From the NCBI RefSeq assembly GCF_900168015.1, contig NZ_FUYR01000002.1, forward strand, positions 888,932 to 952,931: a DNA stretch of 64,000 nt, in the 5' to 3' direction. Shown piece by piece: positions 48,973-59,793 of the stretch. This DNA is from Daejeonella lutea (GTDB lineage: Bacteria; Bacteroidota; Bacteroidia; Sphingobacteriales; Sphingobacteriaceae). The number at the start of each line of letters is the position of its first letter. Positions within the stretch are counted from its first letter, which is position 1. The translations under genes were made by a program, and so were the position numbers. A model generated the notes under the pieces. It had not been told where the DNA came from. It worked only from the letters and a program-made list of their open reading frames with translations, and did no database searches.

Positions 48973-49045
48973 GATTCCGTAGCTCAGCTGGTAGAGCATT
49001 ACACTTTTAATGTAGTGGTCCTGGGTTCGAATCCCAGCGGGATCA
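48973..49045 (+). tRNA. tRNA-Lys (UUU)
   Basis: A complete cloverleaf of 73 nt. Acceptor GATTCCG pairs with CGGGATC (one T-G pair), discriminator A; D-arm GCTC/GAGC; anticodon stem TTACA/TGTAG with loop CTTTTAA, so the anticodon is TTT; T-arm CTGGG/CCCAG around TTCGAAT. CCA is not encoded. A consensus promoter lies just upstream. Confidence 0.95.
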
Positions 49046-49241: not shown

Positions 49242-49315
49242 GGACCGGTAGTTCAGTTGGTTAGAATGCCGCCCTGTCACGGCGGAGGTCGCGGGTTCGA
49301 GTCCCGTCCGGTCCG
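49242..49315 (+). tRNA. tRNA-Asp (GUC)
   Basis: A complete 74-nt tRNA. Acceptor GGACCGG pairs with CCGGTCC, discriminator G; anticodon stem CCGCC/GGCGG with loop CTGTCAC, anticodon GTC; T-arm GCGGG/CCCGT-type stem around TTCGAGT. CCA is not encoded. It is flanked on both sides by broken partial copies of itself and followed by a terminator. Confidence 0.95.
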
Positions 49316-55469: not shown

Positions 55470-57188
55470 TTATTCTGTCGGCAAAGTAAACCAGAAGGTA
55501 CTACCCTCACCTTCAACTGAATCAACACCAATTTTGCCGCCATGCCTTTCGATAATTTCGGCTGAGATGTATAAACCAAGCCCTAAACCTGAAAATTGTA
55601 TACCTGATGGGTCTACCCGGTAATATCTATCAAATAAGTGCGGGAGTTTTTCCGGGGAAATTCCAATTCCGAAATCCTGAACCGATACTTTCGCTACCCC
55701 ATCTTGTCGGCTAATGTCTAGTCTAATAGTTTTTGATTCCGGAGCATATTTAATAGCATTGTTTACAAGATTTACTACAACCTGATCAATTCGCTGAAAA
55801 TCTGCAAGGATTTCCACACCTTTTTCGCCTTCAATGATGAAGTTATAGCTGTCATCAGCTTTGACATGGCTGCAGCAATCAGATATCAATTTCGTAAGGT
55901 TAAATCTTGTTTTATTAAGCGGAAGCTGGCCGTGCTGGATTTTCGAAACATTCATCAGGTCCTCTGTCAGATAAAGCACCTTAGACAAGTTTTTGTTAGC
56001 TTTTTCAACAAATTCCGGGATCTTGTCCGAAGTCTTATTTGACTGCATCAGCCTGGTAAGAATCTGCATAGATGCTTTCAGAGATGTAAGGGGTGTTTTT
56101 AATTCGTGGCTTGCAACACTAATAAATTCATCTTTTTGTTGGGAAATCTTCCGCCGGTTTGTTACATCCATAAATGTAACCACACCGCCGGTCAACGTAC
56201 CGTTTTGATCGCGAATAGGAGCCGCATTTACAGAAATATAAAAGCGTTCGCCATTAATTGGCTGAATAGCAATTTCATGATCATAAACTTCTTTTTCAGT
56301 AGACAACATCAACGCTAATGGATGGTCTTTGTGTGTAAGTGGTTCGCCGCTTACTTTCAAATTTTGCCATTTATCCGTACCGTAAATACTACTCAAACTT
56401 TCTTGATTGTTAATAAAAAAGATCTTCTGCGCCATTGGATTCGCATAGGTCAGATTACCCGAAACATCAACTATTACAACCCCCTCAGCCATCGTTTCAA
56501 GAATGCGTGTGAGTCGATCCTGATTTGCCCGCAGATCATCTTCTGCTCTGGTTTTTTTAACTATGGTGATTTCCAGTTCCTTTGTTCTTTCTTTTACCGT
56601 ATTCTCCAGATTGGCGTTTAATTCCTGGGCAATCTTTTGTGCATCCTCAAGTTGTAAATTCTTCTGACGTAAAAGTTGCTGGGTTTCTTTTTGACTGCTT
56701 AAATCCGTTAAGATGATGCTCATGGAGCTTCCTTCGTCAAGTTCGAGGGTTTTAAGGGAAAGCAGTACAGGCGGATTTAATCCATTTCTGCTTTTCAGCT
56801 TTAGTTCTCCCTTGACGTTTTCGTTCCATGCTTTTGATATCAGAAACTTGAACGAACCCTGGTATTGCTGCGGAAGAAATTTTTCGAAGGGTTGCCCGAT
56901 GACCTTTTCAAGAGGTATATCAATCATTTTAGCAAACTGGCTGTTTGAATACAGAATGGTATTGGACTGATTTAGAGTTACAGCACCTTCTGTCATCTGC
57001 TCGATAAAAATGCGGTATGTGTGATCTGCACTTTTGAGCGTAAAAATTTGATGGCCCTCTTTATCTTTAACAACTAAAGCATCAATTTCACCCGAACGAA
57101 TTGCTTCAATGGTATCATTAGATTCCTCCAATTGAATGCGAAGTTCATTCAGCTCAGCAAGTAACTTGATATGTGATGAATTCTCCAA
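55470..57188 (-). CDS. PAS histidine kinase of the Kai operon
   Basis: A 572-residue soluble kinase without membrane helices. Order: a helix with 'ELRIQLEESNDTIEAIRSGEIDALVV' (residues 15-40), PAS 1 (about 55-165), coiled coil (165-222), PAS 2 (222-345), HisKA with phospho-acceptor His361 ('SVASHELKTPLTSL'), and the ATPase domain ending 'GLGLGLYISAEIIERHGG'. It starts with TTG at 57188, 7 bp after kaiB2. It lacks the KaiB-like domain of cyanobacterial SasA, so any coupling to KaiC must differ. The N-terminal helix recurs in kinases near Bacteroidetes kaiC genes, as far as I recall. It is the last gene of the operon; no response regulator is adjacent. Confidence 0.9.
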   Translation of the reverse strand: MENSSHIKLLAELNELRIQLEESNDTIEAIRSGEIDALVVKDKEGHQIFTLKSADHTYRIFIEQMTEGAVTLNQSNTILYSNSQFAKMIDIPLEKVIGQPFEKFLPQQYQGSFKFLISKAWNENVKGELKLKSRNGLNPPVLLSLKTLELDEGSSMSIILTDLSSQKETQQLLRQKNLQLEDAQKIAQELNANLENTVKERTKELEITIVKKTRAEDDLRANQDRLTRILETMAEGVVIVDVSGNLTYANPMAQKIFFINNQESLSSIYGTDKWQNLKVSGEPLTHKDHPLALMLSTEKEVYDHEIAIQPINGERFYISVNAAPIRDQNGTLTGGVVTFMDVTNRRKISQQKDEFISVASHELKTPLTSLKASMQILTRLMQSNKTSDKIPEFVEKANKNLSKVLYLTEDLMNVSKIQHGQLPLNKTRFNLTKLISDCCSHVKADDSYNFIIEGEKGVEILADFQRIDQVVVNLVNNAIKYAPESKTIRLDISRQDGVAKVSVQDFGIGISPEKLPHLFDRYYRVDPSGIQFSGLGLGLYISAEIIERHGGKIGVDSVEGEGSTFWFTLPTE

Positions 57189-57195
57189 ATTAATT

Positions 57196-57501
57196 TTACA
57201 CTAATCCCAATCCTTTTAAAACTTTATCTTTTTCAGACATATCACCAACTAATCGCCTTTTTGGCAAAGGTGATTTTTTTATTAGCATAGGAACAGCAGT
57301 GACATCTTCATTACGCACCAACAAGGGCTGTTGATGAATGTCTATTATTTCAAGTTCATGTCGGCCTTTCAGATGATTTTCGCAAATAATCTTTAGGTTG
57401 TTAATGGCCCGAACCGAATTTGGCGAAGTACCACTCACAAACAATCTAAGAATGTAAAACTCTTCGTCTGTTTGGTTCTCACCGTTACTGCTGTCGCTCA
57501 T
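57196..57501 (-). CDS. kaiB: KaiB-family protein, second copy, divergent
   Basis: A 101-residue KaiB homologue with a polar N-terminal extension (residues 1-13). 'YILRLFVSGTSPNSVRAINNLK' gives the first strand and helix. The segment corresponding to the cyanobacterial 'NPQLAEEDKI' is replaced by 'QQPLLVRNEDV', and the 'GLD' near the C-terminus has become 'GLG' (97-99), so the position of S. elongatus Asp90 is Gly. KaiB binds the KaiC CI ring only in its thioredoxin-like fold-switched form; changes at this position alter that equilibrium in the cyanobacterial protein. It lies 8 bp after kaiB1 and 7 bp before the kinase gene. It may bind a different partner, including the kinase. Confidence 0.9.
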   Translation of the reverse strand: MSDSSNGENQTDEEFYILRLFVSGTSPNSVRAINNLKIICENHLKGRHELEIIDIHQQPLLVRNEDVTAVPMLIKKSPLPKRRLVGDMSEKDKVLKGLGLV

Positions 57502-57509
57502 GAGCTTAT

Positions 57510-57788
57510 TTATAATTGCTTGATGTCAAGCCCAACCAATACCTTTTCCTGGTTAGAGAGGTCGCCAATAATTTTTCTTACAGGTTCTGGTACTTTTTTT
57601 ACAAGCGTTGGAATGGCCAGGATCTGGTCTCCTTCAGCAAGCTGCGGGTTAATCAGTAAGTCAATAACCTCAATCGAATATTGTCCCTTTAAATGCTCTT
57701 CACAATATTTCTTCAAATTGTTCAGGGCAGTAATGGACCGGGACGTCTTTCCCGCTATATAAAGTCTTAATTGATATTGCTTCTCCAC
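57510..57788 (-). CDS. kaiB: KaiB, first copy, canonical
   Basis: A 92-residue KaiB very close to the cyanobacterial protein: '[21 protein letters not shown]', '[16 protein letters not shown]' (48-62), 'VRKIIGDLS' and 'KVLVGLD' (82-88). Gly86 and Asp88 match Gly88 and Asp90 of S. elongatus KaiB, residues that hold the ground-state fold. It should be able to undergo the fold switch and bind the KaiC CI ring. The GTG start overlaps the kaiC stop codon by one base (TAGTG), indicating translational coupling. Confidence 0.94.
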
Positions 57789-59533
57789 TATTTTCTATTT
57801 TTTTTAGTCGGCAAAATATCTCTGGCATTCCCTTTTCGTAATTCCGTCATCTTTTTACGATTCTCTTCCATAACAGCCTTTTTAATATCTTCCTCAACAT
57901 AAACTTTATTTAGTTCTTCCTCTGCTGATTCAAATTCACTTCTAAGGCTTTCTATTTTTGCCTCAAGCATGGTGCGTTTTCTTATAATCTCCCGATCTTT
58001 TCGTGATAATGCATGAGTATGAAGCACCGCTCCCGTTTCCTCCTGCAGCATTTGTTGCATACGGGCAGAACCAGTCAAAACTCCTTCAGGGCCTAAATAA
58101 ACATCTACAAGATCTAAACCGTTTTCACTGATCACAAATTCCCTTACCTGATTGGAATGTGGCATACCACGAGACTTCATGATATATAAACCTTTGTTTC
58201 TTTCCCCGTTGGATTCAATATCCCTGATCAAAATCCACGCATCTACGAGCGATGACACACCTTCATCGGTCTGTTCATTCACAATGGTGTTGAGGCTTAG
58301 GGCGGTGAACATAACCGTGATCTGCTCGGACTGGAAGAAGTCAATAAGGCGTACGAGCATAGATTTAACCTCACTCACCGAGCCTACAGTTATTAAATTA
58401 GTAATGGGGTCCAACACGACAATCTTAGGCTTGAATTTGCGGATAGCTTTATGGATTGCCACAAGGTGCATTTCCAAGCCATACAGTGTTGGTCTTGAAG
58501 CATAAAATTGCAGCATACCCTTGTCAAGGTGCTTCTGAAGGTCCATACCTATGGACTTCATATTCCGTATGATTTGTTGAGGCGATTCTTCGAAAGCAAA
58601 AAACAAACATTTTTCCTTTCGTTCACAGGCAGCATTTACAAAACTCGCTGCAACACTTGTCTTACCAGTTCCTGCAGTTCCTGAAACGAGCACACTGCTG
58701 CCTTTATAAAAGCCTCCCTCAGTTAACATAGTATCCAGGGAACGAATACCGGAAGAAATTCTTTGGGTAGAGACCGGTTTGTCTAGATTCAGCGAGGTAA
58801 CGGGCAAAACTGAAATGCCGTCCTCATCGATAAGAAATGGGTATTCATTTGTGCCATGTAGAGACCCTCTATATTTAACTACTCTCAGACGCCTGGTGGA
58901 AATCTGATCAATTACCCGGTGATCTAAGAGGATGACACAGTCTGAAACATATTCTTCAAGTCCTTGTCTTGTCAAACTTGGTCCGTCCCGTTCGCCTGTA
59001 ATCACGGCAGTTACACCTTTTTCTTTAAGCCATTGGAAAAGACGACGAATCTCAGCTCGTAGGATTCCCTGATTGGAGAGGCCGGAGAACAAGTTTTCTA
59101 TTGTATCTAACACCACGCGCTTTGCACCAATGCTGTCAATAGCATATCCAAGCCTAATAAAAAGGCCATCGAGATTATACTCGCCTGTTTCTGCAATTTC
59201 GCTTTTATCTATATGGACATAATCGAGTTTTATCAGTTTTTGCTCTTCCAGTGTTCTTAAATCAAACCCAAGGGAAGCGACATTCGTTGCTAATTCATGC
59301 GCTTTCTCCTCAAACGCCATAAAAACGCCGGGCTCGTTATAATCCATTGCACCTCTGATTATAAATTCGAGTGAGAACAGAGTTTTACCGCATCCCGCTG
59401 TTCCGCACACCAAGGTGGGCCTTCCAGTTGGTAAGCCACCAAATGTTATTTCATCCAAACCGCTGATTCCAGTTGGTGTTTTGGCCAATTTGGGAGTCCG
59501 CGGTATTTTTGGAATTTTAGTGTTTTTTGCCAT
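57788..59533 (-). CDS. kaiC: KaiC two-domain ATPase/kinase with extended C-terminal tail
   Basis: A 581-residue double-domain RecA-like ATPase. CI: Walker A 'GTAGCGKT' (44-51), catalytic Glu pair 75-76. CII: Walker A 'GTAGTGKT' (285-292), Glu pair 315-316. The autophosphorylation region reads 'QTDEGVSS', so Thr422, Ser427 and Ser428 match S. elongatus Thr426, Ser431 and Thr432; the last is Ser instead of Thr. After CII a Lys/Glu-rich coiled coil (about 515-575) replaces the cyanobacterial KaiA-binding tail. No kaiA is present. The protein probably forms hexamers with ATP-dependent phosphorylation; whether it keeps time is unknown. It is first in a tight kaiC-kaiB-kaiB-kinase operon. Confidence 0.95.
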
Positions 59534-59761: not shown

Positions 59762-59793
59762 AAAAAAAAATCCCGTGGGGACGGGATTCTTTT
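59762..59793. terminator. Terminator-like hairpin in a divergent region
   Basis: AATCCCGT (59769-59776) pairs with ACGGGATT (59781-59788) around GGGG. A nine-base A-run precedes it and TTCTTTT follows, so it could terminate transcription in either direction. No gene ends here. Confidence 0.75.

Follow-up and report, generated by a model that had tools for sequence, protein, structure and literature searches.

How does a KaiC-KaiB system that lacks both KaiA and a SasA-type kinase convey its state to the rest of the cell? The question is raised by a 64,000-nucleotide stretch of the Daejeonella lutea genome, hereafter the window (Bacteroidota, Sphingobacteriaceae; assembly GCF_900168015.1, contig NZ_FUYR01000002.1, positions 888,932 to 952,931 of the forward strand), in which kaiC, two kaiB genes and a gene for a PAS histidine kinase follow each other head to tail as four intact minus-strand frames at 55470-59533. 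The names KaiB1 and KaiB2 are used here for first and second gene position and do not follow the Synechocystis nomenclature. This cassette is a widespread conserved unit and not an oddity of one Bacteroidetes genome, and its kinase begins with a short N-terminal stretch, here called the box, that recurs next to kai genes. We consider it reasonably probable that the cassette is a conserved KaiA-free KaiBC timer, i.e., an ATP/ADP-sensing hourglass, with an output kinase of its own in place of SasA. The features of the region are as follows.

57788..59533, minus strand: kaiC, 581 amino acids, KaiC2 type; CI and CII ATPase domains, Ser427-Ser428 pair, C-terminal tail (NF006799, PDB 8dba)
57510..57788, minus strand: kaiB1, first-position class, 92 amino acids; Pfam KaiB, NF006798, tree set with the Rhodobacter sphaeroides KaiB
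57196..57501, minus strand: kaiB2, second-position class, 101 amino acids; Pfam KaiB, predicted thioredoxin-like (fold-switched) KaiB fold
55470..57188, minus strand: histidine kinase, 572 amino acids; in order, N-terminal box, PAS1, long helix, PAS2, HisKA, HATPase_c
57036..57188, minus strand: Kai-linked box, kinase residues 1-51; helix 6-32 with the AIRxGE.DA motif, hairpin strands 37-42 and 45-50
59764..59793, minus strand: terminator-like hairpin of 13 pairs with a T run, 5' of kaiC; a consensus match only

The frames and spacings of an initial annotation, made from the letters of this DNA alone, were confirmed: the TAG stop of kaiC and the GTG start of kaiB1 share base 57788 (a 1-nucleotide overlap), 8 bp separate kaiB1 from kaiB2, and 7 bp separate kaiB2 from the kinase, which starts with TTG. 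The kaiC product matched Pfam KaiC in two stretches (E 1.3e-109) and NF006799 with 739 bits (cut-off 408); the circ_KaiC model TIGR02655 gave 344 bits, below its cut-off of 546. Its best PDB match was the KaiC of R. sphaeroides (8dba, 645 bits), with an alignment extending into the C-terminal tail, as against 347 bits for the next other KaiC. Judged by its sequence, the protein belongs to the KaiC2, or R. sphaeroides, type. According to the biochemical study of R. sphaeroides KaiC (PMC10076222), that protein is a KaiA-free hourglass; the KaiC2 type has two serines, a longer tail and autophosphorylation without KaiA; R. sphaeroides KaiB binds the ADP-state CI ring and raises ATP hydrolysis, and keeps KaiC dephosphorylated as ATP/ADP, the input to the system, falls. 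A Bacteroidetes group with only KaiB2/KaiC2-like proteins had already been noticed in a 2017 survey (PMC5520375).

All catalytic motifs of KaiC were kept, as first annotated; K50/T51, E75/E76, K291/T292 and E315/E316 are present, and so is S427/S428. In an alignment of up to 130 KaiCs taken from the fetched loci, the Walker lysines and the paired glutamates were invariant, the Walker threonines were either Thr or Ser (Ser in 4/128 and 27/130), and the phosphosite pair, S427-S428 here, was Ser-Ser in 123 of the 130. The tail comprises 91 residues from R491 on, the R. sphaeroides type being marked by an extension of ~50 residues that forms a coiled coil, and has a heptad-like pattern with hydrophobics at 12 of 19 a/d positions and 10 of 46 others, which is the best of seven registers and describes length and pattern only. 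The source genome (4.03 Mb, 99.98% complete) was searched for further components. KaiC domains were matched twice in one gene (234.7 and 138.7 bits) and once each, more weakly, at three other places (51, 30.1 and 27.2 bits); exactly two KaiBs were found, both in the operon. No KaiA scored above the cut-off of 22.2 in the genome, the best match being one of 11.4 bits in a broken frame, which agrees with the initial annotation. There was one kinase of the operon type, the next match having an E of 0.03.

Recurrence of the cassette

The four-gene order, which the initial annotation had marked for a search in other Bacteroidetes, was looked for in samples of increasing breadth. KaiB was present in 29 of 151 genomes of the family sample, and in 26 of these two copies stood side by side. 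The 29 family loci that were fetched came from 28 of the KaiB genomes (the window being the other one) and from genus member G011; 26 had the order kaiC-kaiB-kaiB-kinase, two, from one genus, were without the first kaiB, and one was cut by a contig end. Among 395 Bacteroidota genomes, 39 had a KaiB match, which was above the cut-off in 37. The 32 further Bacteroidota loci fetched around kaiB comprised 15 with the four-gene order, 8 with kaiC-kaiB-kinase, 5 with kaiB and kaiC without a box kinase, and 4 with kaiB and no kaiC in the stretch.

A wider set was obtained via the kinase N-terminus, and 71 of its 80 named loci had the full order: 42 in Bacteroidota, 8 in Pseudomonadota, 7 in Verrucomicrobiota, 3 in Chloroflexota, single ones in Balneolota, Bdellovibrionota, Fidelibacterota, Myxococcota, Nitrospirota, Planctomycetota and Thermodesulfobacteriota, one in the archaeon Methanoculleus, and three in genomes without a phylum name. 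The order in these named loci spans 11 bacterial phyla and an archaeon; the loci lean towards the query, since they are the best 80 of 288 relatives, and many of the genomes are metagenome bins. As the order recurs across phyla, the layout is not a matter of chance, and the heterotrophic Bacteroidetes setting, named in the heading of the initial annotation, turned out not to be the remarkable part, the same order occurring in Pseudomonadota, Verrucomicrobiota, Chloroflexota, Nitrospirota and an archaeal genome. A kinase unlinked from kaiC in related genomes had been named as an argument against a functional module, and this was examined. The linkage held: kaiB adjoined the kinase in 79 of the 80 loci found via the box, and kaiC was present as well in 73, several of the others being short contigs. 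Over all loci, kaiB lay beside 137 of 138 box genes, within 100 bp in 131; of the 138, 57 come from the window itself or from loci that had been selected by their kai genes. There is some overlap between the locus sets, since L084 and L177 share one stretch letter for letter; 21 other loci were checked, and none had such a twin. The suggestion of a self-contained module is strongly supported by this linkage.

The cassette also occurs on plasmids. In annotated records, a Pararhizobium plasmid carries the four-gene form and an R. sphaeroides plasmid the three-gene form, which is also found on plasmids of Sinorhizobium, Rhizobium and Falsirhodobacter, the Sinorhizobium kinase region being annotated as two genes. 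The Pararhizobium qamdonense plasmid (NZ_CP119568.1; kaiC-kaiB-kaiB-'response regulator') shares with the window the gene order, the box on the fourth gene and a KaiC that is 56.5% identical; it differs in that the fourth gene carries a receiver and in being plasmid-borne. The complete cassette of the archaeon (L188, Methanoculleus sp.), on a contig of 350 kb, suggests an acquisition from bacteria. One scan, whose reach is limited to close relatives, gave no viral relatives of KaiB1, and viral carriage of the cassette was set aside on that scan. Around the operon, the hairpin 5' of kaiC may mark the 5' boundary; the region contained 7 terminator-like sites where 4.2 were expected from shuffles, and its promoter-like sites showed no excess (11 found, 11.2 expected). 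Two tRNA genes lie on the plus strand (48973-49045 and 49242-49315), about 6 kb from the operon.

The kinase and its N-terminal box

Pfam assigned PAS, HisKA and HATPase_c domains to the kinase. Neither Pfam nor the predicted fold contained a KaiB-like domain, so that the PAS kinase without this part of SasA, as initially described, was borne out; the fused thioredoxin domain that defines SasA is missing, and the SasA profile NF006800 matched the kinase core only (128.7 bits, residues 350-570). What stands at the N-terminus is the box, modeled as a helix (6-32) and a hairpin (37-50) and not as a thioredoxin fold, at moderate confidence, with a predicted local distance difference test (pLDDT) score of 60-81 by block. 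Profile comparison with the PDB returned weak matches only, the best (E 0.0036) being a Rho-kinase fragment taken for coiled coil. In kaiC-kaiB(-kaiB)-kinase loci the kinase opens with an AIRxGE.DALVV stretch, followed by the hairpin and a PAS domain, the remainder being variable; the pattern AIRxGE.DA fits 135 of 138 box genes, and the box is found in the kinase of the R. sphaeroides operon as well.

The association of the box with kai genes was quantified with a box profile that was built from kai-linked kinases and covers the PAS start; in some genomes the first-look candidates were scored in part (13 of up to 26 candidates in the Bacteroidota rows listed, 18 of up to 45 in those of the second phylum). 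The 395 Bacteroidota genomes gave 28 full-length matches, one per genome and each within about 275 bp of a KaiB match, and none in the 356 genomes without a KaiB match; two other matches, in genomes without KaiB, covered the PAS part only. In 299 genomes of a second phylum, that of a Pseudohoeflea, which we take to be Pseudomonadota, all nine matches adjoined a KaiB match. Pooled over the 694 genomes, 37 of 37 full-length matches lay beside kaiB. The box is nearly always found with kai, whereas kai is often found without the box.

Behind the box, the C-termini comprise HisKA kinases, HWE-annotated kinases, receivers, HD domains or PAS only, and because these differ, the box is the conserved part. 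Of 41 box proteins that were scanned and aligned by structure, chosen by length from the 138, 37 had HisKA and 38 had HATPase_c. Six loci (L138, L143, L144, L145, L147 and L163) encode box-PAS proteins of 232-246 amino acids with no kinase core, directly 3' of kaiC-kaiB-kaiB; judging from these, the box may act in trans, as an adaptor. Two other loci have the box kinase split over two frames (L066, 4589-5644 and 5714-6322; L087, 5040-5978 and 4318-5091), which may reflect decay or assembly error. Among 137 box genes, a lone receiver was next in 25, a receiver was fused in 14 and a longer receiver protein was next in 5, for a total of 44. One of the nearest family relatives of the operon kinase is directly followed by a lone receiver of 119 amino acids (L076, 3572-3931), a likely phosphotransfer partner of a kind that the window lacks.

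These data bear on the direction of signaling. The kinase might instead be an input, its PAS domains sensing redox or light and signaling to KaiC-KaiB, as proposed for the operon kinase of R. sphaeroides, for which a relay of a redox signal to KaiBC is reported in PMC5520375 to have been suggested. Two PAS domains in the kinase, and the operons whose box-PAS proteins are too short for a kinase core, would fit such a sensor or adaptor. However, a HATPase_c transmitter in 38 of the 41 longer box proteins and a fused or adjoining receiver at 44 of 137 box genes point to phosphotransfer away from KaiC, and KaiC of the R. sphaeroides type phosphorylates itself (PMC10076222). We judge the input role to be unlikely.

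The two KaiB classes

Both KaiB copies are intact open frames, as first annotated, and both scored above the Pfam KaiB cut-off of 27 (KaiB1 95.2 bits, E 2e-27; KaiB2 83.5 bits, E 8.8e-24). On NF006798, the clock KaiB equivalog with a cut-off of 110, KaiB1 scored 114.6 and KaiB2 81.3 bits; this cut-off is a poor divider, since the R. sphaeroides KaiB itself scores 94.2. The consensus sequences of 117 first-position and 117 second-position KaiBs differ. A KaiB tree was built from 126 of 264 KaiB domains, thinned at 78% identity and without two long-branch singles (L095 and L107). In it, 33 first-position KaiBs and 4 singles, including that of R. sphaeroides, formed one set of 37 rows with a support of 97 in the Shimodaira-Hasegawa-like approximate likelihood ratio test (SH-aLRT), and the position label switched once among 33 first and 77 second rows; this count excludes single KaiBs, which as a third group raise the label changes to 12. 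Only the main split of the tree is trustworthy, since few other forks were resolved (8 starred of 123). KaiB1 and KaiB2 are, on this phylogeny, distinct ancient paralogues that separated early, and the pair stayed split in most operons of the sample. That the two copies are instead redundant products of a recent duplication, with no division of labor, is very improbable. Both are indeed intact members of the KaiB family and operons with a single KaiB exist, but within-locus identity averages 46% and reaches 65% at most (106 loci), which together with the single position change on the tree speaks against a recent duplication, and that reading was rejected.

A more specific proposal is that KaiB2 is the KaiB-like domain of a SasA-type kinase, detached from it. 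The KaiB2 model (mean pLDDT 80.7) has the thioredoxin-like order of strands and helices; its closest structures are Legionella KaiB and KaiB bound to KaiC, and it is distant from the Synechococcus elongatus KaiB crystal 4kso (template modeling (TM) score 0.40), which we take to be the ground-state KaiB fold; the predicted fold is weak evidence on the free protein, since predictors may favor the thioredoxin-like fold. After KaiB itself, the model resembles the SasA N-domain 6x61 (TM 0.61-0.67 by query length), a weak sequence match links KaiB2 to 6x61_B (E 0.008), and the SasA profile scored slightly higher on the KaiB2 of the window than on its KaiB1 (31.0 and 26.2 bits). Elsewhere, however, this profile treated both classes alike: five KaiB2s scored 19.5-29.1 bits, three out of four KaiB1s 19.7-29.0 bits (the remaining one gave no match at E 0.01) and the R. 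sphaeroides KaiB 26.7 bits; the identity of KaiB2 as a split SasA is unsupported by these scores across loci.

Co-variation was examined by partial Mantel tests, for which thinning at 85% KaiC identity left sets of 80 and 76 out of 106 loci. The four-way test gave 0.51 for KaiC-KaiB1, 0.45 for KaiB2-box, as a detached SasA domain would have it, and 0.12-0.24 for the other pairs. With the KaiC tail as a separate variable, KaiB2-box fell to 0.32 (0.19 and 0.24 in two subsets), and box-tail stood at 0.37 (0.24 and 0.48 in two subsets). Since the pattern weakened with the tail separated and in the two subsets, co-evolution was not robust and was dropped as a guide to partners. Taking profile and co-variation together, we find the detached-domain origin of KaiB2 quite improbable.

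Some loci depart from the pair. L087 retains the second class, and L118 and L094 retain the first. In L087 and L088 (genomes G039 and G072, one genus of the source family), the first kaiB is absent and the second retained, and KaiC is more diverged with Ser-Ser kept; these loci are a natural test of KaiB2 acting alone. A third KaiB, nearest to the second class, lies in L105 (G528, 552252-562488) with no kaiC in the 10-kb stretch fetched, the full cassette being present elsewhere in that genome. Finally, in several genomes of the second phylum sample a strong and a weaker KaiB match occur ~2 kb apart (e.g., G643:C26, G619:C1 and G723:C73), perhaps as a different type of arrangement, kaiB-kaiC-KaiB-like.

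Proposed mechanism and its standing

The mechanism that we propose builds on the observed gene order, protein classes, catalytic and phosphorylation residues, ancient KaiB split and kai-linked box. Its KaiC and KaiB1 biochemistry is carried over by analogy from the R. sphaeroides work, and its box docking or kinase contact, KaiB2 role and receiver target are the inferred parts. KaiC would autophosphorylate on Ser427/Ser428 at high ATP and without KaiA, because its A-loop is proposed to stay extended, and its C-terminal tail would join two hexamers. KaiB1 would bind the ADP-state CI ring, raise ATP hydrolysis and favor dephosphorylated KaiC, so that phosphorylation is proposed to track the ATP/ADP history of the cell, as an hourglass and not a free-running clock. 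The kinase would read the state of KaiC by docking of its box on KaiC or on the KaiC-KaiB complex, in parallel to the KaiB-like domain of cyanobacterial SasA, to which the box is unrelated, and its HisKA core would phosphorylate a receiver, encoded next door in part of the relatives and not in the window. KaiB2 would most likely be a second ligand of the same KaiC ring, linking or gating the kinase, and its role is the least certain part of the mechanism. An output kinase that reads KaiC or KaiC-KaiB is suggested by the constant linkage, by the conserved N-terminus with varying outputs, and by the receivers nearby in a third of the cases.

Comparison with known systems places the operon closest to the kaiC-kaiB-HWE kinase operon of R. 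sphaeroides (Cereibacter; PDB 8DBA, 8FWI, 8FWJ). Both have a KaiC of KaiC2 type with Ser-Ser and a C-terminal tail, no KaiA, a KaiB in the first-class tree set and a downstream kinase with the same box; the differences are one KaiB there against two here, and a kinase annotated as HWE there against HisKA here. The kaiC-kaiB-PAS/HK (histidine kinase) operon of Rhodopseudomonas palustris, likened here by its description in PMC4794148, shares the gene logic and the downstream PAS histidine kinase, with one kaiB named there and two here. The cyanobacterial KaiABC-SasA-RpaA system shares KaiC, KaiB and an output-type histidine kinase whose core matches the SasA profile; in contrast, the present system has no KaiA, its kinase lacks the KaiB-like domain and has another N-terminus, and its KaiC falls below the TIGR02655 cut-off.

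A further possibility is that KaiC-KaiB serves as a metabolic switch with no day-length meaning, the kinase feeding a general stress response as a clock-independent stress or energy sensor. The ATP/ADP input of the R. sphaeroides system (PMC10076222) is consistent with this, but the KaiC here is of the type studied as an hourglass timer, and R. palustris, with its kaiC-B-PAS/HK operon, is reported in PMC4794148 to be a proto-circadian timekeeper. We regard such a sensor as a serious possibility, though not the probable one; it shares its molecular parts with the hourglass with output kinase and differs in use, and the chances of the two therefore overlap.

Several observations weigh against the hourglass with output kinase that we prefer. 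The genus is patchy, with a KaiC of the operon type in 5 of 20 genomes, and the module is therefore dispensable. Neither KaiB class is strictly needed beside a box kinase, since some operons keep only the first and others only the second. Most of the tail is missing in 8 of 122 full KaiCs that adjoin box genes, and docking of the box on the KaiC tail was rejected on this ground in spite of their co-variation. KaiB genomes without a box match number 9 of 37 in Bacteroidota (above the cut-off) and 26 of 35 in the second phylum, and distant unlinked boxes could escape the kai-linked profile with its PAS start and partial candidate scoring; G542 has two box genes (one of them L173) without a kai gene in the adjoining stretch, in addition to a linked one. 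A box-free kinase lies upstream of kaiB-kaiC in L095 and downstream of it in L111, and in L109 and L115 a lone kaiB is flanked by such kinases on either side; other Kai arrangements seem to use other kinases. Of 137 box genes, 83 have no fused or adjoining receiver despite the contig running on, and a further 10 lie where the contig breaks off; the receiver profile detected none in the window.

A broader version of the output reading may be put forward tentatively, as rather doubtful: the box could be the common ancestral output family of KaiC2-type KaiBC timers, in which box-PAS proteins dock on KaiC-KaiB, with either KaiB2 or the KaiC tail as the contact, and relay its state to transmitters that can be exchanged for one another. 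A 'pre-SasA' output would then be common to many bacteria and to some archaea, and one KaiB copy would serve the timer and the other the output. The box-free kinases near kai genes in other arrangements lower its chances.

Parts of this picture were in print. According to PMC3164672, almost all kaiC-kaiB clusters outside cyanobacteria have a histidine kinase or GGDEF/EAL gene directly 3', and the kaiC-B-PAS/HK operon is already named in PMC4794148. The view of the initial annotation that the function of the arrangement is not established proved partly outdated: the R. sphaeroides relative of KaiC is a studied hourglass (PMC10076222) and the operon is published (PMC4794148, PMC3164672). That annotation had missed the ancient KaiB paralogy and the kai-linked kinase N-terminus. 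Neither paired kaiB paralogues nor the kinase box turned up in the open-licence literature searched; the operon itself being known, the ancient, stable KaiB pair and the kai-linked box seem to be new.

The 2017 survey concludes that the Synechococcus type of clock output cannot apply outside cyanobacteria, because SasA homologues there are without the KaiB-like domain (PMC5520375). The kai-linked kinase N-terminus is a concrete, single-motif candidate for this missing output, and it is also present in the operon kinase of R. sphaeroides, a species with a solved KaiC-KaiB structure. With this box and the stable pair of KaiBs, the signaling of KaiBC timers outside cyanobacteria becomes directly testable, by binding and by phosphotransfer.

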